A stretch of DNA of 59,353 bases, from assembly GCF_000383795.1 (NCBI RefSeq), contig NZ_KB912728.1, positions 120,326 to 179,678 on the forward strand, given 5' to 3'. Position 1 is the first letter of the stretch. The number at the start of each line of letters is the position of its first letter. The notes beneath the pieces are model-generated. The model had not been told where the DNA came from and did no database searches. It worked only from the letters and a program-made list of their open reading frames with translations. The stretch comes from Saccharomonospora saliphila YIM 90502 (GTDB lineage Bacteria; Actinomycetota; Actinomycetes; Mycobacteriales; Pseudonocardiaceae). A program made the position numbers and the translations under genes. This document shows positions 4,301 through 46,498 of the stretch, in pieces.

Positions 4301-4719
4301 ACTCGCGAACCGCCGATTCAACACCTCCACTGTCACCGTGTGGGAGATCGACGGGTTCCAGGGGTAGACCTGGGTGCGGGTCTTGCGCTCGTCGGCGGGC
4401 AGCTTGTCATGTCCTGGGCGCGATGTCTTGGCCAGGGGCGGTAATCACTCCCGCCTCGACAGATCCGAGGGGTACGGGGACTGAGCTTCGGCTGACGTCG
4501 GTGCAGGCTCAGCTGAGGTTCACGGCCGACGTCCTGACTTGTTGGTGGATGTGTTGATCGGGTCGAAGCGCTGGTCATGTGGAGCGGGGCCTGCTCGACA
4601 CAGGCGCAGGCGCAGGCCACGTGAACAGGATCACCGGTAGAGTTACACAGGATTCATGCGAAAGTTGCGGTGCCGCTCGCGCACCGCCGACTGCTGACTG
4701 CGATGAGGTGCGAGGCGCG

Positions 4720-32577: not shown

Positions 32578-33543
32578 TCAGGGTGCGGGCTGGCGTCCCG
32601 GGGTGTCGCGTGGAATCCGGGCAGGCACCTCGTGGTCGAGCGCGATGAGGGCGGCGCCGACCACACCTGCCCGGGATCCGAGCGCGGCGGTGAGCAGCGG
32701 TGGCACCGGCACGGTGTTCGCGCGGGTACGCAGCCGGTCCTCCACGGGATCGAGTAAGGCGCGGCCTGCCATGGCCAGCCCGCCGCCGAGCACGATGCCG
32801 CCGGGCGCCAACAGCGCGGTCGCGGCGAGCAAGCCGTCGCCGAGTGCCTCGGCCGCTTCGTCCCACACCGCGTCCGCCGCGGGGTCCTTGCCACGCAGCG
32901 CGACGACGTCCTCGGCGCCGCGGACCGGGCGTCCCGAGAGCTCGGTGTAGGCGCGTGCGACCGCCGCGGCTGAGGCCACCGCTTCCAGGCACCCGCGGAC
33001 ACCGCAACCGCACAGCGGTCCGGCGGGCCGGACAACCACATGACCGAGCTCGCCCGCTTGGCCGGACGTGCCGACGACGCGCCTGCCGTGCACGTAGCTC
33101 ACGGCGCCGATCCCGGTGCCGACGAAAACCACGACCGGATCGACCAGGTCTCGCGCCGCGCCGCGCTGCCGCTCCGCCTCGGCTGCGACCGTGACGTCGT
33201 GACCAAGACGGACCGGCAGGCCCAAACGCCGCGACACCGGCTCGACAATGGGCTCGTCGCGGAGGTCGAGGTTCGCAGCGAAAACGCTGGTGCCGGCCAC
33301 GGTATCCACGATCCCCGGCAGCGCCAGTCCGGCGGCGGACACGGCGGCACGTCGGTCCGGTTCCAACGTGGCGAGCAGCGTAGTCCCAACCTCGGCGATC
33401 GCGTCAACCAGCGCAGCCCCGCGGGGAGTCGGTGCCCGTGTGCTGGCCCAGGGCCGCAGGTCGGGTCCCACCACCTCGGCCTTGGTCGTCGTACCGCCGA
33501 TGTCGAAGGCGAGAACGGCGCCGCCCGGAGTTCTTTCGTCCAC
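32578..33543 (-). CDS. ROK-family sugar kinase
   Basis: A 321-residue kinase of the ROK family, like glucokinase. It has the phosphate loop AFDIGGTTTKAEVVG, FVGTGIGAVSYVHGR, the ROK zinc motif CGCGVRGCLEAVAS, the catalytic region ELGHVVV and a C-terminal LGSRAGVVGAALIAL. GTG 33541-33543 is the likely start. Unlike the regulator at 34803 it has no DNA-binding domain. It probably phosphorylates a hexose or keto-sugar from the pathway encoded by the next 13 kb. Confidence 0.88.
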   Translation of the reverse strand: MDERTPGGAVLAFDIGGTTTKAEVVGPDLRPWASTRAPTPRGAALVDAIAEVGTTLLATLEPDRRAAVSAAGLALPGIVDTVAGTSVFAANLDLRDEPIVEPVSRRLGLPVRLGHDVTVAAEAERQRGAARDLVDPVVVFVGTGIGAVSYVHGRRVVGTSGQAGELGHVVVRPAGPLCGCGVRGCLEAVASAAAVARAYTELSGRPVRGAEDVVALRGKDPAADAVWDEAAEALGDGLLAATALLAPGGIVLGGGLAMAGRALLDPVEDRLRTRANTVPVPPLLTAALGSRAGVVGAALIALDHEVPARIPRDTPGRQPAP

Positions 33544-33708
33544 AGTGTCAGCCTGTCACTGGACGTTCAGCAGCGGATGTCCTCGCCGTCAGCACGGTAA
33601 GCACCTCGTGCATGACGCTGTTCACCGGTTCCTGGGGCTGGATCCAGCACACCATCCGCTCCCGCCACTGGTTTTCACCACTGTGTTGCTTACCCCGGTC
33701 GGGTCGCG

Positions 33709-34677
33709 TTAGTGGGGTTGCGCCGTCCGTTCGGGTGGGCCATTTCGGTGGCCGACATCGCTGCGGGCGGCGGCGTTGGTGATGGTGCCGCGTTCCTTCC
33801 GGGTGATCACGCCGTCGGCCACCAGCTCGGAGGTCACGTCCTTGACGTGGCGCATGAACGCTCCCTTGTTCGGCCACTCGCCCTCGTCGTCGATGAGGTC
33901 GTTGATGGTGCAGCCGTTGTCGAGGGCGTGGTTGGCGACGTCGCTGTCGACGTCACCGAGCACGACAGTCTCCCGAGAATCCGGTTCGGGGCACGGCCCC
34001 TCCGGCTGCGTCAGATCCTTGATCCAGACATCGCGGAACTCTACGCTTTCGCCTGCTGTCTGACCCCTTGAGTGGTTCTGCAGGCCGACGTAGCCTTCGA
34101 GCCCTCGGCTGCCGTCACCGGTGTAGGTGGCGACCTCGGTGCCGTTGAGGATGACCCGATATTCGTGGCCGATGGCCTCGATCTCCATCGTGTTCCACTC
34201 ACCGATGGGGTTGGTGGCCAGCGGCTCGGCCGGAGCGAAGGTGTAGATGGCACCGGTCCGTGTCAGGGGATCGTCGGTGGCCTCATAGATCTGCACCTCG
34301 TAGCCCTGGTTCACGCCGACCCACGGGTCATCACCGGGATCGGGGAAGCGCATGAACACGCCTGCGTTGTCGGCAGGGTCATGGACCCGGAAGTCGACTC
34401 GCATGGTGAAATCGGTGAACTCGCGCTGGTCGTACCAGAGCAGGCCCATGCCTCCATGCGGCTGGAGCAGCCCGCAGTCGGCGACGACGAAGCCACCGGG
34501 ACCCGCCTGGGTCCATCCGTTCAGCGTCTCGCCGTCGAACAGTGGTACGTAGCCTGCGGGCGGCGTGTGCCGATCCGGGCATGGGTCGGCCTCCCGTGCG
34601 GCGGCCGGTGCGCTCACCAGCAGCGACATCAGCAGTGCCAGGAACAACAGCAACGAGGTGGATCTCTTGCCCAACAT
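33709..34677 (-). CDS. secreted 3-keto-disaccharide hydrolase-domain (DUF1080) protein
   Basis: A 322-residue exported protein. Residues 1-32 form a Sec signal (MLGKRSTSLLLFLALLMSLL ... SAPAAA). Residues about 47-230 form a 3-keto-disaccharide-hydrolase (PF06439) domain: YVPLFDGETLNGWTQAGPGG, RVDFRVHDPADNAGVFMRFP, GYEVQIYEA and GEWNTMEIEAIG. The last 90 residues are a separate module shared almost identically with the 1,327-residue dehydrogenase at 36281. The ATG at 34677 has GGAGGG upstream. Members of this family hydrolyse 3-keto-glycosides or bind sugars. Promoter, leader and signal-peptide DNA are a mirror copy of those of the dehydrogenase gene, so the two are surely co-regulated. Confidence 0.88.
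   Translation of the reverse strand: MLGKRSTSLLLFLALLMSLLVSAPAAAREADPCPDRHTPPAGYVPLFDGETLNGWTQAGPGGFVVADCGLLQPHGGMGLLWYDQREFTDFTMRVDFRVHDPADNAGVFMRFPDPGDDPWVGVNQGYEVQIYEATDDPLTRTGAIYTFAPAEPLATNPIGEWNTMEIEAIGHEYRVILNGTEVATYTGDGSRGLEGYVGLQNHSRGQTAGESVEFRDVWIKDLTQPEGPCPEPDSRETVVLGDVDSDVANHALDNGCTINDLIDDEGEWPNKGAFMRHVKDVTSELVADGVITRKERGTITNAAARSDVGHRNGPPERTAQPH
33750..34005. repeat. duplicated C-terminal module DNA, copy A
   Basis: The reverse complement matches 39973-40232 almost base for base over about 250 bp. It encodes the same tail (ETVVLGDVDS, NHALDNGCTINDLIDDEG, KGAFMRHVKDVTSELVADGV). Such high identity next to diverged enzyme domains suggests recent copying or gene conversion. Confidence 0.88.
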
Positions 34678-34730
34678 GGTCCCTCCGGGTGGGGTTGCTG
34701 GCCGCACACAAGATCGCGCATGGGAGACTT

Positions 34731-34751
34731 AGTAATGAAACTATCTTCACT
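34731..34751. promoter_or_regulatory. putative ROK-repressor operator, hydrolase side
   Basis: A 21-bp A/T-rich imperfect palindrome (AGTAATGAA to TTCACT) lies just downstream of the hydrolase promoter -10 box. It is conserved base for base, apart from two changes, at the matching place of the second promoter (36207-36227), while surrounding positions vary more. That suggests a repressor binding site. Confidence 0.5.
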
Positions 34752-34764
34752 ATCTCGCTGGAGT

Positions 34765-34793
34765 TGTATATCGCCTGCGAGGTGTAGCGTCAA
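34765..34793 (-). promoter_or_regulatory. sigma-70-type promoter of the hydrolase gene
   Basis: On the minus strand TTGACG (34793-34788) and TATACA (34770-34765) are separated by 17 bases, a near-consensus housekeeping promoter. The -35 box lies only 9 bases from the ROK regulator start codon, so the regulator's own promoter must overlap this region. Confidence 0.75.
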
Positions 34794-34802
34794 GGGGTCG
34801 CG

Positions 34803-36014
34803 ATGCAAGCTGGTGGTAATCCGCAGACGCTGCGGCTGATGAACTGCGCCGCGGTACTGACCGTCCTCCAAGAGGTGGGGGCGGCCCGCGTGACGGAACT
34901 GATGCGAGCGACCGGCCTGTCCCGTCCGACGGTCACCGCGGCCGTCTCCACGCTGATCGACGACGGCCTGGTCGAAGAGGCCGAGACGCTTGAGGCCGAC
35001 GTGCCTCGGATGGGTCGGCCCGCGCGCGTGTTGAGGTTCCGCGCCGACGCCCGGTATGTGCTCGGCGTCGATGTCGGCCCGCACCGGGTCTACTGCGAGG
35101 TCGCCGACCTCAACGGAACCATCGTCGCCCGTCAGCGCCGCGACGTGACCGCCGAGGGCGACGCGCATGCCAACCTGCTCGACGGTGTCGAGGCGACCAT
35201 GAGCGAGGTCCTCGCCAAGGCGGGGGTCCCGCTGTCCGCGCTCGCCTCGGTGGGCGTCGGTATGCCGGGCATCGTTGACCCGCGCCGCGGTGCCGTGGTG
35301 CAGGCGCCCTCCATGCCCGGCCGGGACTTTCTCGAACTCGGCCGCTTGCTCCAGCGCAACGTCAGCTGCCCTGTGCACGTCGAGAACGACGTCAACCTCG
35401 CCGCCATGGCCGAACGATGGCGCGGCGCGGGCAGCCAGACCGACAACCTGCTCCTCGTGCAGTGGGGGTCTCGGGTCGGTGCCGCGGTGCTGTTGCGGGA
35501 CCAGCTGCTCCGCGGTGCCCACGACGCCGCCGGTGAAATCGGGTTCGTCGATCTCGAGGACGAGCCGCAGGGGGTGCAGGCCGGTGGACACGGCCCGCTC
35601 GAGTCTTCTGTCGGGACCGCGTGGATCGTGCGCCGTGCCCGCAGCCTCGGCGATGACCGGAGCACGGACGCCGCGGCTGTCCTCACCGCCGCGGCCGACG
35701 GCGACGCGCGAGCGCTCCAGGTGGTCGACGAGGTCTGCGCCCGTCTCGCGCGCGGCCTCGCCCCCTTCCTCCTGGCAGTCGACCCCGAACTCGTGATCAT
35801 CGGTGGGGGCATCGTCCTGGCCGGCGACGCCGTCCTCACCGCTCTCCGGCACCACCTGACCAAACGCGTGATCGTCGTACCCCGAATAGCGCTCTCGCGC
35901 CTCGGCGACGACGCGGTCGCGCTCGGTGCTGTGCACATAGCCCTCACCGAGGCCCACCGACGCCTCCTGGACCCCTACACCGCGCCGAACACGAAGCCGG
36001 TCACTCGGCGCTGA
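34803..36014 (+). CDS. ROK-family transcriptional repressor (NagC/XylR type)
   Basis: A 403-residue regulator. Residues about 15-80 form a MarR-like winged helix (VTELMRATGLSRPTVTAAVS ... LIDDGLV). The remainder is a ROK sugar-binding domain with GVDVGPHRVYCEV, GVGMPGIVDP and VENDVNLAAMAERW. The ROK zinc cysteine motif is not conserved here, unlike the kinase at 32578. The ATG at 34803 abuts the hydrolase promoter. It sits between two mirrored promoters carrying the same palindrome, so it likely represses both until the sugar is present. Confidence 0.88.
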   Translation: MQAGGNPQTLRLMNCAAVLTVLQEVGAARVTELMRATGLSRPTVTAAVSTLIDDGLVEEAETLEADVPRMGRPARVLRFRADARYVLGVDVGPHRVYCEVADLNGTIVARQRRDVTAEGDAHANLLDGVEATMSEVLAKAGVPLSALASVGVGMPGIVDPRRGAVVQAPSMPGRDFLELGRLLQRNVSCPVHVENDVNLAAMAERWRGAGSQTDNLLLVQWGSRVGAAVLLRDQLLRGAHDAAGEIGFVDLEDEPQGVQAGGHGPLESSVGTAWIVRRARSLGDDRSTDAAAVLTAAADGDARALQVVDEVCARLARGLAPFLLAVDPELVIIGGGIVLAGDAVLTALRHHLTKRVIVVPRIALSRLGDDAVALGAVHIALTEAHRRLLDPYTAPNTKPVTRR

Positions 36015-36164
36015 CTCTGTCCGTCCTCCGGGAAAGTTCCGGCACCGGCGACGTCGGGCGCGGTGGCCTCGGGCAGCTCCGGTACCAGCACGAACGGCCC
36101 GGTACCGCGGCGCCGTTCCTCGGCCGCGGCGTCGGCCGGCCACCACCGGCTTGGCTCGCGACCC

Positions 36165-36193
36165 TTGACGCTACACCGCGTAGGCGATATACA
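36165..36193 (+). promoter_or_regulatory. sigma-70-type promoter of the sugar dehydrogenase gene
   Basis: TTGACG at 36165-36170 and TATACA at 36188-36193 with a 17-base spacer, identical in boxes and spacing to the mirrored promoter at 34765-34793. Transcription would begin near 36200, leaving an 80-base leader that contains the palindrome. Confidence 0.75.
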
Positions 36194-36206
36194 GCTCCAG
36201 CAACAT

Positions 36207-36227
36207 AGTGAGGATAGTTTCATTACT
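36207..36227. promoter_or_regulatory. putative ROK-repressor operator, dehydrogenase side
   Basis: An imperfect palindrome (AGTGAGGAT to TTCATTACT) lies just downstream of the expected transcription start. It is the counterpart of the site at 34731-34751. Binding here would block transcription, fitting repression by the intervening ROK protein. Confidence 0.5.
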
Positions 36228-36280
36228 AAGTCTTCCATGCACGATCTTGAGCGCGACCGGCGACCCCACCCGGAGGGACC

Positions 36281-39200
36281 ATGTTGGGCAAGAGATCCAC
36301 CTCGTTGAAGAGATCCACCTCGTTGCTGTTGTTCCTGGCACTGTTGGTGTCGCTTCTGGTGAGCTCGCCGGCCGCCGCGCAGGAGGCCGGCGATGCGCAG
36401 GACCCGGGCTCCACGTTCGCGGAGCTGTCCGCGGGTGACGAGTTCGAGAAGGTGCTGCTGACTCCGGATGTGCCGGAGCCGATGACGATGGACATCGCGC
36501 CTGACGGCAGGGTGTTCATGGCCAGCCGTGATGGCGTGATCCGGATATTTCATCCGGAGACCGAGCAGGTGACCGTCGCGGCCGAGTTGAGTGTGTTCGA
36601 CGATCATCCGTTGCCGTCGAATCCTGACTTCGAAGGATCGAAGAACCAGGAGGGCGGGCTCCTGGGGCTGGCGCTGGATCCCGACTTCGAGTCGAACGGC
36701 TGGGTGTACGCCTACTACACCAGCAGAGACGAGAAGAACCATTTCTTGTCCCGCTTCGCGGTCCAGGACAACGAACTGGACGTGGCGTCCGAAGTCGTCC
36801 TGTTGAAGGTGCCGTACAACAAGACCCACTGCTGTCACGTGGCAGGGGACCTCGAGTTCGACTCCGCGGGGAACCTGTATCTGAGCACCGGCGACGAGTC
36901 GCCGCCGGATCTGAACGACCAGTACTCGCCGCTCGATAACCGGCCGACCCATTGGTACAACGACGACCGCAGGACGTCGGGCAACACGAACGACCTGCGC
37001 GGGAAGATCCTGCGGATCACACCGCAGCCGGACGGCTCCTACACGATCCCCGAGGGCAACCTGTTCCCGGCGGAGGAGTACAACCAGGACCTGACGCGGC
37101 CGGAGATCTACGCGATGGGCTTCCGGAACCCGTTCCGGATCTCGATCGACCCGGCGACCGATCGGCTGCACATCGGCAACTACGGTCCCGACCGGCTGGG
37201 GGAATGGACCGAGCGCGGACCGTGGGGCTTCGATCAGTACATGACGACGTCGGAGCCGGCGAACTTCGGCTACCCGTACTGCATCGGAAACAACTACCCG
37301 TACCGTCAGTGGGACTACGAGAGCGACCAGCCACGGGGCGACTTCTACGACTGCGAGAACGGCCCGGTCAACGACTCGCCGAACAACACCGGGCTCGAAC
37401 AGCTTCCGCCGGTGAAGCCGGCGACCATCTATTACCCACGCAGCTGGGCCGGGTGGCCGGACACGTGGGTCGGATGGCCCGACCGGCCGATCAACCCCAT
37501 TCCGGAGCCGTTCCTGAACATGGGCACCGGCGCCGGGGGACCGATGTCCGGGCCGGTGTATCGCTACGACGAAAACCTCGAGTCCGACACCAAGTTCCCC
37601 GAACACTACGACGGACGCTGGTTCCTGCTGGACTACCACCGCGGCCACGTCAAGACAGCCGCGCTCGACGACAACGAGAACGTCACCGCGATCGACGACT
37701 TCATGCCCGGCGAGACCTGGTCCCGCCTCATGGACGGCACGTTCGGCCCGGACGGCTCGCTTTACGTCCTCGAAGGCGGCGGCTTCGGACCCAGTGCCAA
37801 CGCGGGCCTCTACCGTATCGACTACGTCAGCAACGACTCTCCTCCTCTCGACGAGTGCGTGGTCGACGACTTCAGTGGGAGCGAGCTCGATCGTGAGATG
37901 TGGTCGACGATCGTGCGCGAGAATCCCGATGGTTACCGGCAGGCCGACGGCGCGCTGGAAATCGACATGCTGCAAGGTGACATGATCAGCAACCACCTGA
38001 GCGGCAACGTCAACACCGACGCGCAGAACTTGATCCTCACGCCGGTTCCGGACGAGCGATGGACCGCCGAGGTCACCGTCGCGATGCCGGAGAACCCTGT
38101 CCGGCACGATCAGGCCGGATTCATCATCCATGCCGACGACGAGAACTTCACCAAGGCAGCGTTCTTCCCTCCGGTCGGTGACCAGGCCGATGGACGGTTC
38201 GAGTACCTCTACCATGAGAATGGTGAGATCCGCTATCAGAGTGGAGTCGACAACCCGGCTGTTCCGGATGCGCCATCGACGCTCAGCCTCCGGCTGACCA
38301 GTGATGGCGAGAACGTGACCGCCGAGTATTCCCGGGACGGGCAGACGTGGGTCAACGTGGGGAGACCGGCCCCGATCTCGCGATACGACAACCCCAGGTT
38401 CGGGTTCTTCGCCGCGCATGGTCCCAATGAGATCGAGAGCCCGTTGACCGCGAGGTTCACCGACTTCTCCTTGTGTACCGCGTCCGACGCGGAACCGCCC
38501 GCGTGTGCGGAGCCGACGGTCGACGCGGGCTACCGTCCGCTGTGGGACGGGTCGACGCTGAACGGGTGGAACCAGGCCGGACCGGGCGGGTTCACCGTCG
38601 TCCCGGACGCGGACCGCGAGGGTACGTGTGCTCTCGAAACGGTCGGCGATCCGGAAGGGCTGGGGATGCTGTGGTATGAGGAGCAGTTCGAGTCCTACCG
38701 GTTGCATCTCGACTTCAAGGCCGTGGCCGAGAACGACAACTCGGGGGTGTTCTTCGGATTCCCCGATCCCGGTGACGACCCCTGGATCGGCGTGCGCCAG
38801 GGCTACGAGATCCAGATCGACGACACCGGTGGCCGACCCGACGCTCCGGACAGCTCCAAGACCGGGTCGATCTACACCTTCCAGGCGCCGACGTCGTTCC
38901 CGACCGTCCCCGGTCAGTGGAACGAGATGGAGATCGAGGTCGATGACCCGATGGTCCGGGTGTGGATCAACGACGTGCTGGTCAACGAGTACGAGAACCC
39001 GGAAGGCTCGGGACGCGACCTGTCCTCCGGCTACATCGGGATCCAGAACAACCGCGTGTCGGACAACGTGTTCTTCCGCGACCTCTGGGTCAAGGAACTC
39101 ACCGATGAGCTGACGGTGGATGCCTCGGTGGAGCCAGTGGAGCCCGACGGCACCAACGGTTGGTACGTGTCGCCGGTGACGCTGAGCCTGGAGTCGAACA

Positions 39201-40264
39201 ATCCCGATGCGGAGTTGCAGTGGCGTCCGCGGACCGATGAGTCCGAGTGGCGCACGTGGACCGAACCCGTGGTGTTCGACGCGGACGGTGTCCACAACAT
39301 CGATTATCGGGCGGTGGTTCCCGGCGACGGTGGCGAGCCGGCGGAGAAGGAGATCCTCGTCGGAGAGAACGGGTTCGATTTCAGCGAGTCCGAGTTCAGT
39401 GTGCGGCAGGGTGACACGGTCAAGTTCCAGTACGTTCCCGGCTACGCACACGATGTGGTGATCACCGACGAGAGCGGCACGGTGCTGGCGTCTCGTCCGC
39501 TGGGATCGGATTGGGAGGACGACCCGTTCTTCTACGAGGCAGCCGAGGTGGGCACGTACTACGTCTACTGCACACCGCACTCGAGTCGGCCGGATCCTGA
39601 TGATCCGACGACGTGGACCGGTATGGTCTCGACGTTCGAGGTGCAGCCGTCGGGTGGTCCTGGTGAGCAGACCGGGATCGAGGAGATCGAGTTCTTGGTC
39701 GATCAGACGGCTCCCGCCACGGAGGCGTCCCTGCAGGGCGAGCAAGCCGGTGATGTCTTCACCGGGCCGGTGACGGTGCGCCTGGATGCGCAGGACGCCA
39801 CCTCCGGCGTCGCGCGGACGCAGTACCGGATGGCCGGTGAGCCGGAGCCGACGGTCTACACCGAGCCGTTCGTCGTGCCCGGCCCCGGTGACTACACGGT
39901 GGAGTTCCGGTCGGTGGACGTGGCAGGCACGGTCGAGGACTGGCGGTCGGTGGAGTTCACCATCGGCGAGCCGGGGCCGTGTCCCGAGCCGGATTCTCGG
40001 GAGACTGTCGTGCTCGGTGACGTCGACAGCGGCGTCGCCAACCACGCCCTCGACAACGGCTGCACCATCAACGACCTCATCGACGACGAGGGCGAGTGGC
40101 CAAACAAGGGAGCGTTCATGCGCCACGTCAAGGACGTGACCTCCGAGCTGGTGGCCGACGGCGTGATCACCCGCAAGGAACGCGGCACCATCACCAACGC
40201 CGCCGCCCGCAGCGATGTCGGCCGCCGAGGTGGCCCACCCGCGGGAGGCGCACGACCCTACTGA
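36281..40264 (+). CDS. secreted multidomain PQQ-type sugar dehydrogenase with cupredoxin domain
   Basis: A 1,327-residue exported protein. Domains in order: signal peptide 1-40; glucose/sorbosone dehydrogenase beta-propeller about 45-520 (EGGLLGLALDPDF, LRGKILRITPQPDG, GFRNPFRISIDPATD); a DUF1349-like jelly roll about 530-735; a 3-keto-disaccharide-hydrolase domain about 750-935 (YRPLWDGSTLNGW, GVFFGFPDPGDDPW); a linker; a cupredoxin about 1025-1125 with a full type-1 copper set, His1057, Cys1097, His1100 and Met1115; an Ig-like/OmpL47-type domain about 1135-1230; and a 90-residue C-terminal module shared with the hydrolase at 33709. The propeller could oxidise a sugar with PQQ and pass electrons to the attached copper centre. 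ATG 36281 follows GGAGGGACC. No cell-wall anchor (LPXTG) is present. Confidence 0.85.
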   Translation: MLGKRSTSLKRSTSLLLFLALLVSLLVSSPAAAQEAGDAQDPGSTFAELSAGDEFEKVLLTPDVPEPMTMDIAPDGRVFMASRDGVIRIFHPETEQVTVAAELSVFDDHPLPSNPDFEGSKNQEGGLLGLALDPDFESNGWVYAYYTSRDEKNHFLSRFAVQDNELDVASEVVLLKVPYNKTHCCHVAGDLEFDSAGNLYLSTGDESPPDLNDQYSPLDNRPTHWYNDDRRTSGNTNDLRGKILRITPQPDGSYTIPEGNLFPAEEYNQDLTRPEIYAMGFRNPFRISIDPATDRLHIGNYGPDRLGEWTERGPWGFDQYMTTSEPANFGYPYCIGNNYPYRQWDYESDQPRGDFYDCENGPVNDSPNNTGLEQLPPVKPATIYYPRSWAGWPDTWVGWPDRPINPIPEPFLNMGTGAGGPMSGPVYRYDENLESDTKFPEHYDGRWFLLDYHRGHVKTAALDDNENVTAIDDFMPGETWSRLMDGTFGPDGSLYVLEGGGFGPSANAGLYRIDYVSNDSPPLDECVVDDFSGSELDREMWSTIVRENPDGYRQADGALEIDMLQGDMISNHLSGNVNTDAQNLILTPVPDERWTAEVTVAMPENPVRHDQAGFIIHADDENFTKAAFFPPVGDQADGRFEYLYHENGEIRYQSGVDNPAVPDAPSTLSLRLTSDGENVTAEYSRDGQTWVNVGRPAPISRYDNPRFGFFAAHGPNEIESPLTARFTDFSLCTASDAEPPACAEPTVDAGYRPLWDGSTLNGWNQAGPGGFTVVPDADREGTCALETVGDPEGLGMLWYEEQFESYRLHLDFKAVAENDNSGVFFGFPDPGDDPWIGVRQGYEIQIDDTGGRPDAPDSSKTGSIYTFQAPTSFPTVPGQWNEMEIEVDDPMVRVWINDVLVNEYENPEGSGRDLSSGYIGIQNNRVSDNVFFRDLWVKELTDELTVDASVEPVEPDGTNGWYVSPVTLSLESNNPDAELQWRPRTDESEWRTWTEPVVFDADGVHNIDYRAVVPGDGGEPAEKEILVGENGFDFSESEFSVRQGDTVKFQYVPGYAHDVVITDESGTVLASRPLGSDWEDDPFFYEAAEVGTYYVYCTPHSSRPDPDDPTTWTGMVSTFEVQPSGGPGEQTGIEEIEFLVDQTAPATEASLQGEQAGDVFTGPVTVRLDAQDATSGVARTQYRMAGEPEPTVYTEPFVVPGPGDYTVEFRSVDVAGTVEDWRSVEFTIGEPGPCPEPDSRETVVLGDVDSGVANHALDNGCTINDLIDDEGEWPNKGAFMRHVKDVTSELVADGVITRKERGTITNAAARSDVGRRGGPPAGGARPY
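36290..36325. repeat. 18-bp tandem duplication in signal peptide
   Basis: AAGAGATCCACCTCGTTG occurs twice in a row, so the signal peptide reads KRSTSLKRSTSL. The duplicate adds six residues and two more positive charges before the hydrophobic core. The frame is kept. The mirrored hydrolase gene has a single copy. Confidence 0.9.
39973..40232. repeat. duplicated C-terminal module DNA, copy B
   Basis: This is the second copy of the tail module, at the 3' end of the dehydrogenase gene, in inverted orientation relative to copy A. Differences are a handful of single bases, mostly silent. The extreme C-termini after this block differ. Confidence 0.88.
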
Positions 40265-40276
40265 ACGAACGAACCC

Positions 40277-40451: not shown

Positions 40452-40607
40452 GACGTTGTTGTCTACATTGGCCTAGTCAAATTCGAATACGGTGGTCTGG
40501 TCGCTCCGCGGGGGCGTCGACCGCTGTGGGGACCTTGCGCCACTGCCTGCGCCGAGCGATCCGGCGCGGTGTCACTGAATTGCGTCCGGGACGGAGGAGC
40601 TGGTCAG

Positions 40608-41651
40608 ATGCGGAGACTGAGGACCATGAAGGTGGCCGCAGTGGGAACGGCCCTCGCGCTGACCGCGGCCTGCGGTGGCGGTGGGGCGACCCAGGAGGGC
40701 TCGGGCAACGGCGACGGGCAGTTCGTCATCGGGGTCAGCAACACGCTGGCCGGAAACGGGTGGCGGGAGCAGATGGTGTGCTCCATCAAGGCGGAGGCGC
40801 TCGCCAGCGGTCAGGTCTCCGAGGTGGTGGTGATCTCGGAGAACGCCGGGCCGACCGAACAGGTGCAGCACCTGCAAAACCTGATCTCGCAGGGCGTTGA
40901 CGCGATCGTCGTGAATCCGTCCGATCCCGAACAGCTGAACGGCATCATCGAGCAGGCCGACGCGCAAGGCATCGCCGTGGTCTCCGTGGATTCCGCGGTC
41001 TCCACCGACGCGGCGCACGTCGTCACCAACGACCAGGTCGAGTGGGGCCGTCTGGGCATGGAGTGGCTGGCCGAGGAGGTCGGCGGGCAGGGCGAGCTGC
41101 TCTACGTCCGCGGAATCGAAGGCGTGCAGGCCGACGTGGACCGGCACAAGGGAGTGATGGCGGCGCTGGAGGAGTACCCGGACATCACCCTGCGGACCGT
41201 CTGGAGTGGCTGGGACTACACCAAGGCCGGTGAGCAGGCAGTGCAGCAGTTCAGCGCCGGTGACTTCGCGGGCGTCTGGACCACGGGCGCCGACTACACG
41301 GTGGTCAACGCGATCCAGTCCGCGGGCAAGGAGGCGGTGCCCGTCACCGGCCAGGACACCAACGCCTTCCTGGGACAGCTCATCGAGGGCGCGCCTGGAG
41401 CGGTGGTGACCAACCCGGCCGTGATCGGTGCCGTGGGCACGGACATCGCGCTGAAGGTCCTCAACGGTGAGGACGTCACGCGCGAGACCACGCTGACCCC
41501 TGAGCTGTGGTCGATGGAGGAGGACACCCAGCGGATGACGGAGGCGTACGACCCCCAGCGTCCTCCGACGTCGAGTGCCGCGGTCGACATCGACTACCCG
41601 CTGCAGATGACCAAGGAACAGCTGTACGCCTGCACGGGCCCGGGCGAGTAA
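40608..41651 (+). CDS. sugar ABC transporter substrate-binding lipoprotein
   Basis: A 347-residue type 1 periplasmic-binding protein of the ribose/autoinducer-2 family. The lipobox LTAAC gives a lipid-anchored Cys near residue 23, followed by a Gly/Ser-rich linker. Core text includes FVIGVSNTLAGNGWREQM, LISQGVDAIVVNPSDP and AVVSVDSAVS. ATG 40608 has GGAGG 10 bases upstream; ATG 40626 is an in-frame alternative. It captures a sugar outside the membrane for the permeases encoded downstream. Confidence 0.9.
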   Translation: MRRLRTMKVAAVGTALALTAACGGGGATQEGSGNGDGQFVIGVSNTLAGNGWREQMVCSIKAEALASGQVSEVVVISENAGPTEQVQHLQNLISQGVDAIVVNPSDPEQLNGIIEQADAQGIAVVSVDSAVSTDAAHVVTNDQVEWGRLGMEWLAEEVGGQGELLYVRGIEGVQADVDRHKGVMAALEEYPDITLRTVWSGWDYTKAGEQAVQQFSAGDFAGVWTTGADYTVVNAIQSAGKEAVPVTGQDTNAFLGQLIEGAPGAVVTNPAVIGAVGTDIALKVLNGEDVTRETTLTPELWSMEEDTQRMTEAYDPQRPPTSSAAVDIDYPLQMTKEQLYACTGPGE

Positions 41652-41747: not shown

Positions 41748-43244
41748 ATGCCGCTTGACGAGGCACTGCTGAAAGTGCGAGGCATCGCGAAGTCCTACGG
41801 CACGGTCGTCGCGCTGCGCTCGGCGGACCTGACGGTAAGGCCAGGGGAGTCGCACGCGCTCCTGGGGGCGAACGGCGCAGGCAAGTCGACGCTGGTGAAG
41901 ATCATCACCGGGGTTCTCCACCGCGACGCGGGCAGCATCACCATGGCCGGGGAACCGGTCGAGTTGCGGTCGCCGGCGGATGGCTACGCCAAGGGCATCG
42001 CCACGGTCTTCCAGGACCCGGCGATGGTGCCCGACCTCACCATCGAGCAGAACCTGAAGCTGACCGGCACCGACACCGCCGCGGTCACGCGACGCCTGGT
42101 CGAGTTCGGCATCGGGGAGCTCAGCCTGGCTGAACGTACGCGCGACGTCCCCTTGCCGTTCCTGCGCATGCTCGACCTCGCGCGGGCTCTGACCCACCGA
42201 CCGCGTCTGCTGGTCCTCGACGAGATCACCGCCGCGCTCCCGGCCGACCTCGCCACCACGGTCTTCGACGTGATGGCACGCCACATCTCCGGAGGCGGGT
42301 CCGTGCTGTTCATCTCGCACAGGCTGGAGGAGGTGGTGCGGCACTGTTCCATGTGCACGGTCTTCCGTGACGGCGGTGATGTCGCCAGCTTCCCGCCTCG
42401 CGCGGGCGGCGAGCAGCGGATCGTCCAGTCGATGCTGGGCGAGACCGTGGGGCAGATGGCTGAGGAGACGGTGGGAGCACGCCGAGGCCCGGTCGAACGC
42501 ACCGACCGGCCACCCCGGCTGGTGGTGGAGAACCTCCGTGCCGGGCCCCTGCGCGACGTGAGCTTCTCGGTGCGGCCCGGCGAGGTTCTCGGGGTCACCG
42601 GCTTGGAGGGCCAAGGCCAGGACATGTTGTTCGAGGTGCTCGCCGGCGCGCAGCGTGCGCGGGAAGGCCGCGTCGTCGTGGATGGCGAGGAGATCTCTCC
42701 CCGCCATCCGGCCACCGCCATCCGGCACGGTCTCGCGCTGGTCCCGAGCGACCGCTCCGTCGCGTTGCTTCCCCAGCGGTCGATCCGGGAGAACATCGCG
42801 CTCTCCTCCCGTGCGCGTCCCTCCCGATGGGGGCCGATCAGCATGAAGAAGGAGAACCGTGCGGTGAGCCACGCGGTCGAGCGGCTGTCCATCGACACGC
42901 GTGCGGCCAGCCAGGCGCGCAGGCTGTCCGGCGGAAACCAGCAAAAGCTCACCATCGGCCGATGGCTCGCCGAGGGCTTCACCACGCTGCTGCTCTTCGA
43001 CCCGACCAGGGGCATCGACATCGGCACGAAACGCCAGATCTACACCCTGGTGCGGGAGCTGGCCGACAACGGTGCCGCCGTTGTCCTGTACACGAGTGAG
43101 CTGCGCGAGATCGAGCTCGTGTGTGACCGCGCGGTCGTGCTCTACCACGGTGAGATCGTCGCGGAACTGCCGGCCGACGCCGGTGAGGAGGCCATCCTCA
43201 GCGCGGCCCACGGCTTCGTGGGCGAACCGGAGGAGGCACGATGA
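41748..43244 (+). CDS. sugar ABC transporter tandem ATPase (RbsA/MglA type)
   Basis: A 498-residue double nucleotide-binding protein. The first half has Walker A GANGAGKST and Walker B LLVLDEITAAL, but where the LSxGQ signature should be it reads DVPLPFLRMLDLARAL, so the signature is degenerate. The second half has the usual altered Walker A (LEGQGQDML) but a good LSGGNQQK signature and LLLFDPTRGID. In RbsA-type pumps only one composite site is fully active, so loss in the first half matters for which site works. ATG 41748; its stop overlaps the next gene as ATGA. Confidence 0.92.
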   Translation: MPLDEALLKVRGIAKSYGTVVALRSADLTVRPGESHALLGANGAGKSTLVKIITGVLHRDAGSITMAGEPVELRSPADGYAKGIATVFQDPAMVPDLTIEQNLKLTGTDTAAVTRRLVEFGIGELSLAERTRDVPLPFLRMLDLARALTHRPRLLVLDEITAALPADLATTVFDVMARHISGGGSVLFISHRLEEVVRHCSMCTVFRDGGDVASFPPRAGGEQRIVQSMLGETVGQMAEETVGARRGPVERTDRPPRLVVENLRAGPLRDVSFSVRPGEVLGVTGLEGQGQDMLFEVLAGAQRAREGRVVVDGEEISPRHPATAIRHGLALVPSDRSVALLPQRSIRENIALSSRARPSRWGPISMKKENRAVSHAVERLSIDTRAASQARRLSGGNQQKLTIGRWLAEGFTTLLLFDPTRGIDIGTKRQIYTLVRELADNGAAVVLYTSELREIELVCDRAVVLYHGEIVAELPADAGEEAILSAAHGFVGEPEEAR

Positions 43245-44236
43245 GCGGCAGCCTCACCACGGTCCCGGGCGCCACCAGCGGCCTCGTCCGCTTCCGACAG
43301 CAGTACGGCTGGGTGGTCGGGATGGGCCTCGTGCTCCTGGTCATGCTGTTCGTGCGCTACCTGCAGGTTCCGAACTTCGGCGGTTTCGAGCTGCGGTCGC
43401 TCACCGCGGGGACGCTCACGCTCGCGCTGCTGGCCATGGCCCAGGGCGTGGTGGTCATCTCCGGGGGAATCAACCTCGCGGTGGGTGCGCTCATGGTGCT
43501 CGCCAACTGCGTGTCGGCGTATTTCATGGACGGGCAGTCGCTCGTGGTCTGCCTGCTGATCGCGGCGGGCACCGTCGTGGCCACCGCGCTGGTGTCCGCC
43601 GCGATGGGCTGGGTCGTGGCCGTCTCCGGCATGCCCGACATCGTCGTGACACTGGCGCTGCACTTCGTCTTCGTCGGTATCGCGCTTCTCGTCCTCGGTG
43701 GCCCCGGGGGCGGCACCTCGCCGGAGTTCGCGCAGCTGATCACAGGCGGGTTCACGAATCCGTGGCCCGCGCTGCTGACGCTGGCCGGAATCTACTGTCT
43801 GATCTGGCTGCCCTTCAGCCGCAGTCGCGCAGGGATCGCCGTGTACGCGGTCGGCAGCGACCGGCAGTCCGCGTTCCTCGCCGGAGTCGCCGTACGGCGG
43901 ACCCGGATCCGGGCCTATCTGCTCTCCGGCGTCTTCACCGGGTTCGCGGGCGTGGCGACCACAGCTCTGCTCGGGAGCGGGAATCCGGAGGAGTCGATCG
44001 CGCTGGGCGCATTGCTCGGTTCGGTGGCGGCCGTGGTGCTGGGTGGCGTCGCGCTGTCCGGCGGGGTCGGGCGATTGCTCGGGCCGGTCCTCGCCGCCTT
44101 CGTGCTCACGCTGATCCCGGCGATCCTGCTCAGTATGGGGGTCAACTCGAATGTGGCCGTCCTGCTCGAGGGCGCGATCATCATCGTGGTGGTGATGCTC
44201 GGCGGACTGCTGGAGATCAGGAGGAGGAGCGAGTGA
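43241..44236 (+). CDS. sugar ABC transporter permease 1
   Basis: A 331-residue BPD_transp_2 family permease like RbsC, with about nine membrane helices and the conserved VVISGGINLAVGALM and GALLGSVAAVVLGGVALSGG blocks. ATG 43241 overlaps the ATPase stop by four bases, so translation is coupled. It forms the channel with the second permease. Two different permeases instead of a homodimer are typical of the YtfT/YjfF galactofuranose and AI-2 type importers. Confidence 0.92.
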   Translation: MSGSLTTVPGATSGLVRFRQQYGWVVGMGLVLLVMLFVRYLQVPNFGGFELRSLTAGTLTLALLAMAQGVVVISGGINLAVGALMVLANCVSAYFMDGQSLVVCLLIAAGTVVATALVSAAMGWVVAVSGMPDIVVTLALHFVFVGIALLVLGGPGGGTSPEFAQLITGGFTNPWPALLTLAGIYCLIWLPFSRSRAGIAVYAVGSDRQSAFLAGVAVRRTRIRAYLLSGVFTGFAGVATTALLGSGNPEESIALGALLGSVAAVVLGGVALSGGVGRLLGPVLAAFVLTLIPAILLSMGVNSNVAVLLEGAIIIVVVMLGGLLEIRRRSE

Positions 44237-45231
44237 GCGTCACCGCGGACATGGCACATCGGCAGGACCAGGGACGACGCCTGCGCCGGATCCTGACCGA
44301 CCAGCCCGTCATCGTGCTGAGCGTCGTATTCGTGGTGTTCTACGTGGCGACCGCCGTGGTGGACCCGAGCCTGTTCAGCGCCGGAGGTATCCGCTCCATC
44401 CTGCTGCTCGCCTGTCCTCTGGCTCTGTTCGCCGCTGGGCAGACCCTCGCCTTCCTCACCGGCGGCATCGATCTGTCGGTGACGATGATCGCGAACCTGG
44501 CCGCCTACGTCGCCGCGACGCAGAGCGGAGCGGGACCGGTGGTCGCGCTGGGTTTCGCCGTGCTCGCGGCCGTCGCGGTGGGAGCGGTGAACGGCATCGG
44601 CGTCGGTGTGTTCCGCGTTCACCCGCTGATCATGACCATCGGAATGTCGAGCGTCCTGCTCGGCGTCGTCTCGGTCGGCCTGGCCAGTGGTGGCTTCCTC
44701 TCCGGGTCGGCGCGGGTTCTTCCACTGCTCAGGGAGATCGGCGGGGGAAGCCTTATCGGGCCGGTCCCGCTCAACGCACTGGTGTGGGTCACGGTGGCAG
44801 CGCTGCTGGTCTACGGGCTGCACCGGTCGGGACTGGGACGCACCATCTACGCCGTGGGCGACAATCCCGAGGCCTGCCGGCTGTCGGGCGTCCGCGTCTG
44901 GCAGGTGCACATCGCCACCTACGTCGTCGTCGCCGTCCTGGCCGCGGTCGCCGGACTGTTGATCTCGGGGACGAGCGGTTCGGTGGGCCCGAGCCAGAGC
45001 AACGTGTTCCTGCTGCCGAGCATCGCTGCCGCCGTCATCGGAGGAACGTCGATCCTCGGTGGCTACGGCGGGTACGCCGGAACGATCGTCGGAGCGCTGA
45101 TCCTGACCGTCCTGAACCGTCTGCTCCTCGCGCTCGAGGTGGGACCGGACGTGCAGCAGATCGTCTACGGGCTCATCGTGCTCGCGCTGGCCTGGGTCTA
45201 CGTGGCGGTGTCCGGCCAGCGCTCGGGCTGA
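44233..45231 (+). CDS. sugar ABC transporter permease 2
   Basis: A 332-residue permease of the same family (QTLAFLTGGIDLSVTMIANL, AAAVIGGTSILGGYGG near the C-terminus) with a cytoplasmic basic N-terminus. GTG 44233 overlaps the previous stop and follows GAGGAGGAGC. Last gene of the four-gene importer operon, which ends in a hairpin at 45255-45280. Confidence 0.92.
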   Translation: MSVTADMAHRQDQGRRLRRILTDQPVIVLSVVFVVFYVATAVVDPSLFSAGGIRSILLLACPLALFAAGQTLAFLTGGIDLSVTMIANLAAYVAATQSGAGPVVALGFAVLAAVAVGAVNGIGVGVFRVHPLIMTIGMSSVLLGVVSVGLASGGFLSGSARVLPLLREIGGGSLIGPVPLNALVWVTVAALLVYGLHRSGLGRTIYAVGDNPEACRLSGVRVWQVHIATYVVVAVLAAVAGLLISGTSGSVGPSQSNVFLLPSIAAAVIGGTSILGGYGGYAGTIVGALILTVLNRLLLALEVGPDVQQIVYGLIVLALAWVYVAVSGQRSG

Positions 45232-45295: not shown

Positions 45296-46498
45296 TCAGG
45301 CGGTGCCGACGACCTCCTCCACGACCTCGCCGGTGTCCTGGCGCCGGAAGAGCAGCTTCGTCCGTCCGTCCGGCAGCGTCTCGCTCTTGATCACCGGGTG
45401 GCCGTTGTGGGTCTCGGCGACCCGGGAGATCCGCGGTGTCGACCCGCCACGCCAGTCGTCGAGCTGCACCGGCTCCCACTTCCCACTGCCGGAGGAGGCG
45501 AAGCACGCGTCCATAACGCAGTTGACGACGTACCCGTCGTAGAACGTCTCCCGTGGCTCGGTACCGTTGTCGATCGAGTCGAACATGTCGGTGAACATGT
45601 CGACGTATCCGAGCTCACCGACCTCGTCGCCGACAGGGAAGAGCCAGCCGCTCGTCGTTTCGGCCTTCTCAGCGACGTATCCTTCGCCCTTGCCCGTGGT
45701 GAACATCTCGAAGCCGGTCCGCTGGAAGTGGTTGAGCCAAATCGTTCCCTCGGTTCCTGCGACCTCGTCGCGCAGGTCCAAGCCCCCGCGGAACGCCCAG
45801 GACACCTCGAACTGCCCGACGGCGCCGGACTCGAAGCGGATCAGGGCCACCGCGTGGTCCTCCGCGGTGATCGGGTGGACCAGGGTGTCCTTCCAGCAGA
45901 ACACCTCGACCGGCCGGTTTCCCTTGCCGATGAACGACCGGCAGATCTCGATGCAGTGGCAGCCCAGATCCACGATGGCACCGCCACCGGCCTTCTTCTC
46001 GTCCCAGAACCAGGCGCTGTGGGGGCCGGGATGGGTCTCTCGTGAACGCACCCACAGGATGTCGCCGAGCGCGCCGTCCCGCACCGACTTCACCGCCCCC
46101 AACGTCTTGGGCGTGTAAGCGAGGTCCTCAAGGTAGCCGGCGAAGACGCCGTGCTCTTCGACGATGTCGAGGAGTTTCTTCGCCTCCGCGCCGGTGCGGC
46201 CGAGTGGCTTGGTGCACAGCACGTGCTTGCCGTTCTCCGCGGCGAGGCGGACGGCCTCCTCGTGCATGTCGTTGGGCAGCCCGATCACCACGGTGTCGAT
46301 GTCAGGGTCTGAGCACGCCGCCTCCAGTGATGTGGTCGACCGCGGGACCCCCCAGCGTTCGCGGAACGCCGCGCCGCGCTCCTCCGAGCGCGAGTACACC
46401 AGGTCTACCGTGTCGCGGTTGCGCCCGCGATGCAGAGTGGCGGTGTAGAAGTCCCCGATCAGGCCGGTACCCAACATGGCGATGCGGTGCTCTGTCAC
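45296..46498 (-). CDS. Gfo/Idh/MocA-family oxidoreductase
   Basis: A 400-residue NAD(P)-dependent sugar or inositol dehydrogenase. The Rossmann fold has [16 protein letters not shown], the cofactor-side motif is [17 protein letters not shown] (the E-K-P Lys that anchors the sugar), and [18 protein letters not shown] carries the substrate His/Asp set. ATG 46498. It faces the ABC importer, with a terminator between. Enzymes of this family make or use 3-keto-sugars, which fits the 3-keto-glycoside hydrolase domains nearby. Confidence 0.9.

Follow-up and report, generated by a model that had tools for sequence, protein, structure and literature searches.

A secreted actinobacterial protein joining a GSDH-type propeller, a DUF1080 domain and a predicted type-1 copper site

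Architecture of the long chain

Here we describe a long secreted protein encoded in a 59,353-nucleotide stretch of the genome of Saccharomonospora saliphila YIM 90502 (contig NZ_KB912728.1, positions 120,326 to 179,678; this whole stretch is called the window below). The protein combines a six-bladed propeller of the GSDH family with a DUF1349-like domain, a DUF1080 domain and a cupredoxin. Its gene is a single uninterrupted frame with an ATG start, and a signal peptide can be recognised by eye, so the single secreted chain of 1,327 residues proposed in a sequence-only reading of this DNA is borne out. The features of the chain are as follows.

36281-40264, plus strand: secreted multidomain protein of 1327 residues, in the order GSDH, DUF1349, DUF1080 domain a, OmpL47-like repeat, cupredoxin, OmpL47 repeat, C-terminal module
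36281-36379, plus strand: signal peptide of the Sec type, read by eye, with cleavage after Ala-Ala-Ala
36407-37840, plus strand: GSDH six-bladed propeller domain (Pfam, residue mapping, family columns, fold search)
37865-38485, plus strand: DUF1349 / GH43_C2-like concanavalin-type domain (Pfam)
38528-39094, plus strand: DUF1080 domain a, 3-keto-disaccharide hydrolase family (Pfam)
39104-39340, plus strand: first OmpL47-like immunoglobulin (Ig) repeat, by eye at residues ~942-1020, interrupted or followed by the cupredoxin
39353-39646, plus strand: cupredoxin domain (Pfam, ligand positions, PDB sequence search)
39761-39964, plus strand: OmpL47-type Ig-like repeat (NCBIfam NF047446, residues 1161-1228)
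39980-40231, plus strand: C-terminal module of about 85 residues (sequence matches; no Pfam match)

Pfam matches GSDH (PF07995) over residues 66-343 (E 7.5e-31, 108.1 bits against a cut-off of 25), DUF1349 over residues 552-731 (E 1.4e-10) and 3keto-disac_hyd/DUF1080 (PF06439) over residues 750-938 (E 3.5e-38, 132 bits against a cut-off of 26.8), which confirms the DUF1349-like and 3-keto-disaccharide hydrolase domains named earlier. DUF1080 domain a is 84-90% identical to domain a of five aligned homologs. The stretch 39104-39340 attracts Ig-repeat matches in a genome search with the cupredoxin region and, judged by eye, the cupredoxin seems to be positioned inside or between Ig repeats. These repeats, the C-terminal module and a divergent DUF1080b gene go beyond the sequence-only reading. 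No LPXTG motif or C-terminal membrane span was seen when the translation was read by eye. An assembly artefact as the source of the long chain is ruled out, since the window contains no N or other ambiguous base, and chance domain matches are ruled out as well, as the architecture recurs at 10 named loci with 75-82% identity in the best segment. Long open reading frames on the opposite strand of 36281-40264 were taken for shadow frames of high-GC DNA. A structure model of the whole chain (pLDDT 48.8, pTM 0.40) was too poor to give a distance between propeller and copper and was set aside.

The Pfam Copper-bind match to the cupredoxin (PF00127, residues 1025-1102, E 3.3e-4) is barely above the cut-off, with 21.5 against 21.2 bits. 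A PDB sequence search with the domain finds plastocyanins (best E 2.7e-5) and, weakly, amicyanins. All four ligands of a predicted type-1 copper site are present exactly where they had been placed before: His1057 (39449-39451), Cys1097 (39569-39571), His1100 (39578-39580) and Met1115 (39623-39625). Their spacing, H-40-C-3-H-15-M, is kept under a strict pattern in 26 of 27 homologous loci, the window included and some species repeated; the non-match is L061.

The C-terminal module is common to other secreted proteins of the genome, including the product of the DUF1080b neighbour gene and the unfused copper proteins described below. It has two conserved Cys (...GCTINDLIDDE...) and is carried by dehydrogenase, hydrolase and unfused copper proteins alike (in the window and at loci L013, L081, L111 and L161). 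The module might dock its carriers to one surface partner.

Distribution of the fusion

Within Saccharomonospora the protein is found in 3 of 12 genomes including that of the window, that is in two of the eleven congeners (G299 and G303). A sample of 298 genomes of the same order, drawn without these two congeners, gave a full-length match to the cupredoxin region only in the window's own genome. At the level of the class, a search of 394 genomes gave further matches to this region in 14 (78-84%), all of them Jiangellaceae, and weak ones in five more. The named contigs with the architecture come from Jiangella (6), Haloactinopolyspora alba, Georgenia satyanarayanai (2 strains) and one metagenome-assembled genome.

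A survey of the domain order in databases, which the sequence-only reading had proposed, finds GSDH, two tandem DUF1080 domains and the cupredoxin together in one chain in all 12 other loci examined (the 10 named ones and the two congeners), with L079 read as two frames and part of the 14 matching Jiangellaceae genomes covered. With the window included, GSDH, both DUF1080 domains and the cupredoxin are present at all 13 loci. The DUF1349 domain seems dispensable, since in the congener G303 Pfam detects the two tandem DUF1080 domains and no DUF1349, and in G299 the DUF1349 stretch is without a match. A tree of GSDH domains does not group the GSDH of the window more closely with those of its two congeners than with those of Jiangella, which makes horizontal transfer likely.

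The homolog of Jiangella aurantiaca (L079) consists of two frames of 689 and 847 residues, which could reflect a sequencing error or a real break.

A second GSDH clade with an adjacent copper gene

Jiangella possesses a second set of genes, in which the gene directly after a ThuA-GSDH-DUF1080 gene encodes a secreted copper protein that bears both OmpL47-like repeats and the C-terminal module described above. We searched 394 genomes with this unfused copper domain. Matches were found in 59, and after viewing the window's own genome apart and leaving out the 10 weakest genomes (best E 8e-19 to 3.5e-13) we examined 50 loci from 48 genomes. A GSDH gene is found directly upstream of the unfused cupredoxin gene, on the same strand, in 46 of these 50 loci, with 114-1677 nucleotides between the GSDH and copper matches (median over match pairs 298), and DUF1080 is part of the same cluster in all 46. 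Three of the remaining loci (L103, L126 and L145) have no GSDH within 6.9-7.6 kb upstream of the copper gene, and the fourth, L142, is a 3.3-kb contig. The order of GSDH and copper gene is also kept in 10 of 10 congener loci (L150-L159, with G302 left out and scaffold gaps between the two matches in L152), which were chosen for the proximity of both matches and are no independent test of adjacency. In family f33 the matches are ordered ThuA-GSDH, copper, C-terminal module and DUF1080, and Pfam, applied to one f33 locus (L111), places copper and DUF1080 on a single protein.

The four copper ligands are invariant in all 62 aligned rows of unfused cupredoxins (61 loci and L081, with L160 left out because the copper domain is missing from this contig end); a narrow strict pattern had caught 24 of 62 loci. 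The fused type has the motif C-x2-H-x14-M, against C-x4-H-x2-M in the unfused query. A tree of 36 GSDHs places the 7 fused and the 18 copper-adjacent ones each on one side of a branch with 100/100 support. The other 11, for which no linked cupredoxin was found with two query sequences, lie on the fused side; L013 was labelled as adjacent by its kin, its copper gene being on another scaffold. These results are consistent with two separate pairings of GSDH and copper protein, or with one old pairing that was often lost, and both argue for function. The link between dehydrogenase and copper protein appears to be general beyond the fusion.

PF00127 matches only the window's copper domain in the window's genome, although contig C117 holds another. 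This genome is a scaffold with gaps of 100 N outside the window, and such gaps occur just after the ThuA-GSDH-DUF1080 gene (C16, L013) and just upstream of the copper-OmpL47 gene (C117, L161). Probably the scaffolding is in error at these points and the two genes lie side by side in the actual genome. Owing to the gaps, we left the gene order of C16 and C117 out of the adjacency evidence.

It could be argued that the cupredoxin works as a separate redox module with a different enzyme, such as a lytic polysaccharide monooxygenase or multicopper oxidase, and that the Ig repeats only carry it along. This would fit its position among Ig repeats, far from the propeller in sequence, and the fact that the unfused copper proteins are separate secreted chains. 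Given that the unfused copper genes follow GSDH genes at those 46 loci, where no search for other redox enzymes was made, we consider this explanation very unlikely.

The split-off DUF1080b gene and the inverted duplication

The long chain of the window contains one DUF1080 domain, and the second one is found in a divergent neighbour gene. The features on this side of the long chain are the following.

33709-34677, minus strand: gene for a secreted protein with signal peptide, DUF1080 domain b and C-terminal module (Pfam, homolog comparison)
33707-34000, minus strand: inverted repeat arm, 95% identical to 39973-40267 (C-terminal module)
34587-34857, minus strand: inverted repeat arm, 82% identical to 36102-36389 (upstream region and signal peptide)
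33638-33697, minus strand: 60-nucleotide stretch just past the stop of the DUF1080b gene, with 80% identity to 40730-40790, a segment from the 5' portion of the binding-protein gene

Pfam matches DUF1080b (PF06439) with 139.3 bits against a cut-off of 26.8, and the signal peptide and C-terminal module of the gene product are like those of the long chain. That the gene is an unrelated neighbour is ruled out by comparison with five aligned homologs, as its product is 73-82% identical to their domain b and 44-50% identical to their domain a. In the long chain, domain a runs at its end straight into the linker found after domain b in the homologs, which fits a recombination between tandem DUF1080 domains. 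An inverted duplication around the ROK-family regulator between the two genes, with complementary domain loss afterwards, would explain how they arose, and the 60-nucleotide stretch suggests that the duplicated block may once have reached into the transporter operon. Gene conversion of the ends is a possible alternative explanation for the near-identical arms. The regions 33709-34857 and 36102-40267 of the window provide a natural case of domain fission, in which one chain with two DUF1080 domains has become two divergent genes.

Genes around the fusion

Further genes of the cluster belong to sugar uptake and metabolism or regulation.

32578-33543, minus strand: ROK-family sugar kinase-like protein (Pfam)
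34803-36014, plus strand: ROK-family transcriptional regulator, between the DUF1080b gene and the long chain (Pfam)
40569-41651, plus strand: RbsB-type sugar-binding protein, Peripla_BP_4 (Pfam; 72-74% identical in two Georgenia loci)
41748-43244, start approximate, plus strand: sugar ATP-binding cassette (ABC) transporter ATPase (named from sequence; 71% in Georgenia)
43241-44236, plus strand: ABC permease 1 (named from sequence; 74% in Georgenia)
44233-45231, start approximate, plus strand: ABC permease 2 (named from sequence; 78% in Georgenia)
45296-46498, minus strand: Gfo/Idh/MocA oxidoreductase, candidate cytoplasmic keto-sugar reductase (Pfam; 81% in Georgenia)

Relatives of the ROK regulator are found beside the fusion in 8 of the 10 named homolog loci (66-74% identical) and in both carrier congeners (67-69%). 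Counterparts of the ABC importer and of the Gfo/Idh/MocA gene, 71-81% identical, flank the fusion in each of the two Georgenia loci. In seven of the eight other named loci there are only distant Gfo/Idh/MocA relatives (26-32%), about 3.5-5 kb downstream, and the eighth contig (L072) ends before that.

Elsewhere in the window we find a type ISP restriction-modification enzyme of 1,670 residues with Mrr_cat_2, ResIII, ISP coupler and specificity domains (4579-9591, plus strand), and a superfamily 1 helicase-like protein of 914 residues with AAA_30 and UvrD_C_2 (10673-13417, minus strand).

A proposed role in oxidative deglycosylation

Our best reading, which we hold with slightly better than even confidence, is that the long chain is a secreted protein for oxidative deglycosylation, in which oxidation by the propeller, a copper acceptor and cleavage by DUF1080 would be followed by uptake. 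The GSDH-fold propeller would dehydrogenate a glycoside, most likely at C3, to give a 3-keto-glycoside. The redox cofactor of the propeller, which might be externally acquired pyrroloquinoline quinone (PQQ) or some other molecule, would pass electrons to the type-1 copper of the chain, which would deliver them to an acceptor in the membrane or outside the cell. DUF1080a of the long chain and DUF1080b of the neighbouring secreted protein may then cleave the keto-glycoside, after which the binding protein and ABC importer would take up the product and the Gfo/Idh/MocA enzyme would reduce it. We infer the regiochemistry at C3, the electron flow including that within the chain, the substrate, the cofactor, the final acceptor, the uptake and the reduction.

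The sequence-only reading had already seen dehydrogenase, copper acceptor and keto-sugar cleavage as one functional unit, and this is supported by the constancy of the domain set in the 12 fusion loci and by the adjacent copper gene of the second clade. Its description of the system as self-contained is wrong for this genome, where one DUF1080 of the pair is encoded by a separate gene and the surroundings include genes for sugar import and a Gfo/Idh/MocA oxidoreductase. To our knowledge, the oxidase for DUF1080 substrates is often unknown beyond the LacABC and Gfo/Idh/MocA routes. A DUF1080 protein that cleaves 3-keto-glycosides needs an oxidase, and the conserved set of GSDH, copper protein and DUF1080 points to a candidate for this role, together with its electron acceptor, in many actinobacteria. 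As far as the available parts of the sources go, DUF1080 proteins are linked by genetics to extracytoplasmic cleavage of 3-keto-glycosides together with the lactose 3-dehydrogenase LacABC in Caulobacter, and the DUF1080 protein BT2157 to the cleavage of 3-ketotrehalose (PMC9007349), and elimination is described as a possible route for cleaving 3-keto-glycosides (PMC10628242).

The propeller and its cofactor

A model of the propeller (pLDDT 56.5, pTM 0.68) was used for its fold only. The closest solved fold is 2ism (Z 30.8, root-mean-square deviation 2.8, 310 aligned), and further near folds are 3a9g (Z 30.0), the PQQ-bound 3das from Streptomyces coelicolor (Z 27.9) and other GSDHs. The earlier label of a PQQ-type propeller stands as a description of the fold, whereas PQQ as its cofactor is doubtful on the residues and genes described below. 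Residues were mapped by alignment to sGDH, with family columns over 77 GSDH domains (near-copies included, seven later GSDHs excluded). His144, Asp163, Arg228 and Asn229 of sGDH correspond to His186, Asp205, Arg282 and Asn283 here, and the calcium loop Gly247-Pro248 to Gly313-Pro314, and each of these six residues is invariant in all 77 domains. Of the PQQ and calcium residues to which the sequence-only reading had drawn attention, the catalytic His and the calcium loop are therefore kept, whereas the Arg406/Arg408 pair is lost in the family.

Directly before His186 there is a vicinal pair, Cys184-Cys185, which is kept in 75 of the 77 domains. The exceptions are the paralogs L009 and L011, which have neither DUF1080 nor the Cys pair. 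In L012 the Cys pair is present and DUF1080 is not, which means that the two do not simply occur together. A vicinal disulfide lies near PQQ in methanol dehydrogenase, and the Cys-Cys pair of GSDH is reminiscent of it.

Lys377 was dropped as a mark of PQQ binding, as 3a9g, a PQQ enzyme, shows Leu there in a weak alignment; in the available part of one source AA12 is likewise described as having no Lys377 equivalent (PMC6881789).

A weak match to the propeller model (E 6.4e-7) is 9m58_A from Deinococcus radiodurans, titled Cu/Zn-superoxide dismutase, which is possibly another copper-linked propeller.

Several observations weigh against the proposed role. Arg406 and Arg408 of sGDH, which hold the PQQ carboxylates and which we take to be positions 482 and 484 here from the 2ism and 3a9g alignments and the sGDH numbering, are lost as a pair in the family. 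Arg occurs at 482 in two of the 77 domains, one of them in this protein, and position 484 is Met here and in 75 of the 77. According to the part of the source available (PMC6881789), AA12 binds PQQ with three arginines, of which Arg430 and Arg621 are kept in bacterial PQQ dehydrogenases, and sGDH has Arg408 instead of the third; that Arg621 corresponds to Arg406 is our own reading. The pqqC gene was absent from all 19 Jiangellaceae genomes searched, 14 of which carry the fusion. It was found in 3 of 12 Saccharomonospora genomes, with the carrier G299 lacking it and the non-carrier G286 having it, where some genomes are only 82-83% complete. Scores for pqqE were above the cut-off in 7 of 43 genomes, and in none of 17 Jiangellaceae. 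The PQQ label is unsafe because the carboxylate arginines are lost in the family and pqqC and pqqE are missing from most carriers searched. The missing genes leave PQQ possible, as enzymes may use PQQ made by others. Chains of HHIP, a non-enzyme that binds glycans, match the propeller model at Z 26-29 (one at 28.9), about level with the PQQ enzymes. No linked cupredoxin was seen for four GSDH paralogs encoded in the same genome (L009-L012), so the GSDH fold does not depend on copper. Orthologous transporter genes are not found beside the fusion in the 8 named loci outside Georgenia or in the two congeners. The DUF1080 protein THTE_1561 is described as an endo-xanthanase/lichenase and a transcriptome study proposes DUF1080 proteins as plain glycosidases, in the parts of the sources available (PMC9007349; PMC5673643).

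These points bear differently on two further explanations. One is that the protein is a true PQQ enzyme which relies on PQQ from other producers, as is believed of E. coli Asd, oxidises free sugars at C1 and passes the electrons to copper, with DUF1080 acting separately, for instance as an ordinary glycosidase that supplies the sugars. The closest solved folds are PQQ or apo-PQQ dehydrogenases including the PQQ-bound 3das, the window's genome has both pqqC and pqqE, on one contig (C42), and some DUF1080 proteins are described as plain glycosidases. Nevertheless we find this explanation rather unlikely, as the equivalents of Arg406/Arg408 are missing in the relatives and the retention of two DUF1080 domains with the propeller in the 12 fusion loci fits a hand-over of substrate better.

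The other is that the propeller is non-redox and binds glycans like HHIP, so that the chain would be a sugar-binding scaffold for DUF1080 and the copper domain would serve, for example, metal scavenging or redox sensing. The loss of the carboxylate arginines, the distribution of pqqC in Jiangellaceae and Saccharomonospora and the HHIP matches would all fit such a scaffold. We regard it as unlikely, because the six invariant residues from His186 to Pro314 do not look like a decayed site and complete type-1 copper sites go with two GSDH clades.

A variant that keeps the oxidative deglycosylation proposed above is possible if rather unlikely: the propeller may no longer run on PQQ in the known way and might use another cofactor, or hold PQQ differently, perhaps helped by the Cys-Cys pair, while passing electrons to a dedicated copper protein and making 3-keto-glycosides for DUF1080. 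A question raised here is how a 'PQQ' propeller works when its family has lost two PQQ arginines and the PQQ-synthesis genes looked for are missing from the genomes concerned.

Comparison with known systems

Each module of the long chain is already known, and what appears conserved is their combination. No published description of a GSDH-cupredoxin fusion or pair was found among the matches listed, subscription journals being mostly outside the coverage. The PF07995 proteins sGDH, Asd and TTHA0570 have the same six-bladed fold, with the equivalents of His144, Asp163, Arg228, Asn229 and the calcium-loop Gly-Pro, but the family described here has Met at the Arg408 position and a vicinal Cys pair, and the window protein is fused to copper and DUF1080 domains. 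A weak match (residues 437-497, 19.2 bits against a cut-off of 122.2) is to TIGR02604, a GSDH-like protein of the PVC type with a heme-binding CxxCH domain. Such proteins combine a propeller with its own electron acceptor, which is heme instead of copper.

The dehydrogenase of LacABC is of another kind than GSDH. The Caulobacter crescentus system of LacABC and a DUF1080 hydrolase likewise performs an extracytoplasmic 3-oxidation followed by a proposed DUF1080 cleavage, but its genes are separate and no copper protein is mentioned in the available part of the source (PMC9007349). The pyranose dehydrogenase of Coprinopsis cinerea (AA12 with an AA8 cytochrome b) is likewise a secreted GSDH-fold dehydrogenase fused to an electron-transfer domain; it differs in being fungal and in its acceptor, which is heme b and not copper, and the accessible text mentions no DUF1080 (PMC6881789).

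Actinobacterial proteins of the ThuA-GSDH-PKD-CBM6-DUF1080 type, one of which is found in the same genome (C89, L010), share the GSDH superfamily and DUF1080 on one secreted chain, but have ThuA instead of a second DUF1080 and no cupredoxin. The pairs of a ThuA-GSDH gene and an adjacent copper-OmpL47 gene (Jiangella L081; f33 L111) share GSDH, DUF1080, cupredoxin, OmpL47 repeats and the C-terminal module with the window protein, and differ from it in consisting of two genes, in belonging to the other GSDH clade, in the copper motif C-x4-H-x2-M and in the presence of ThuA.

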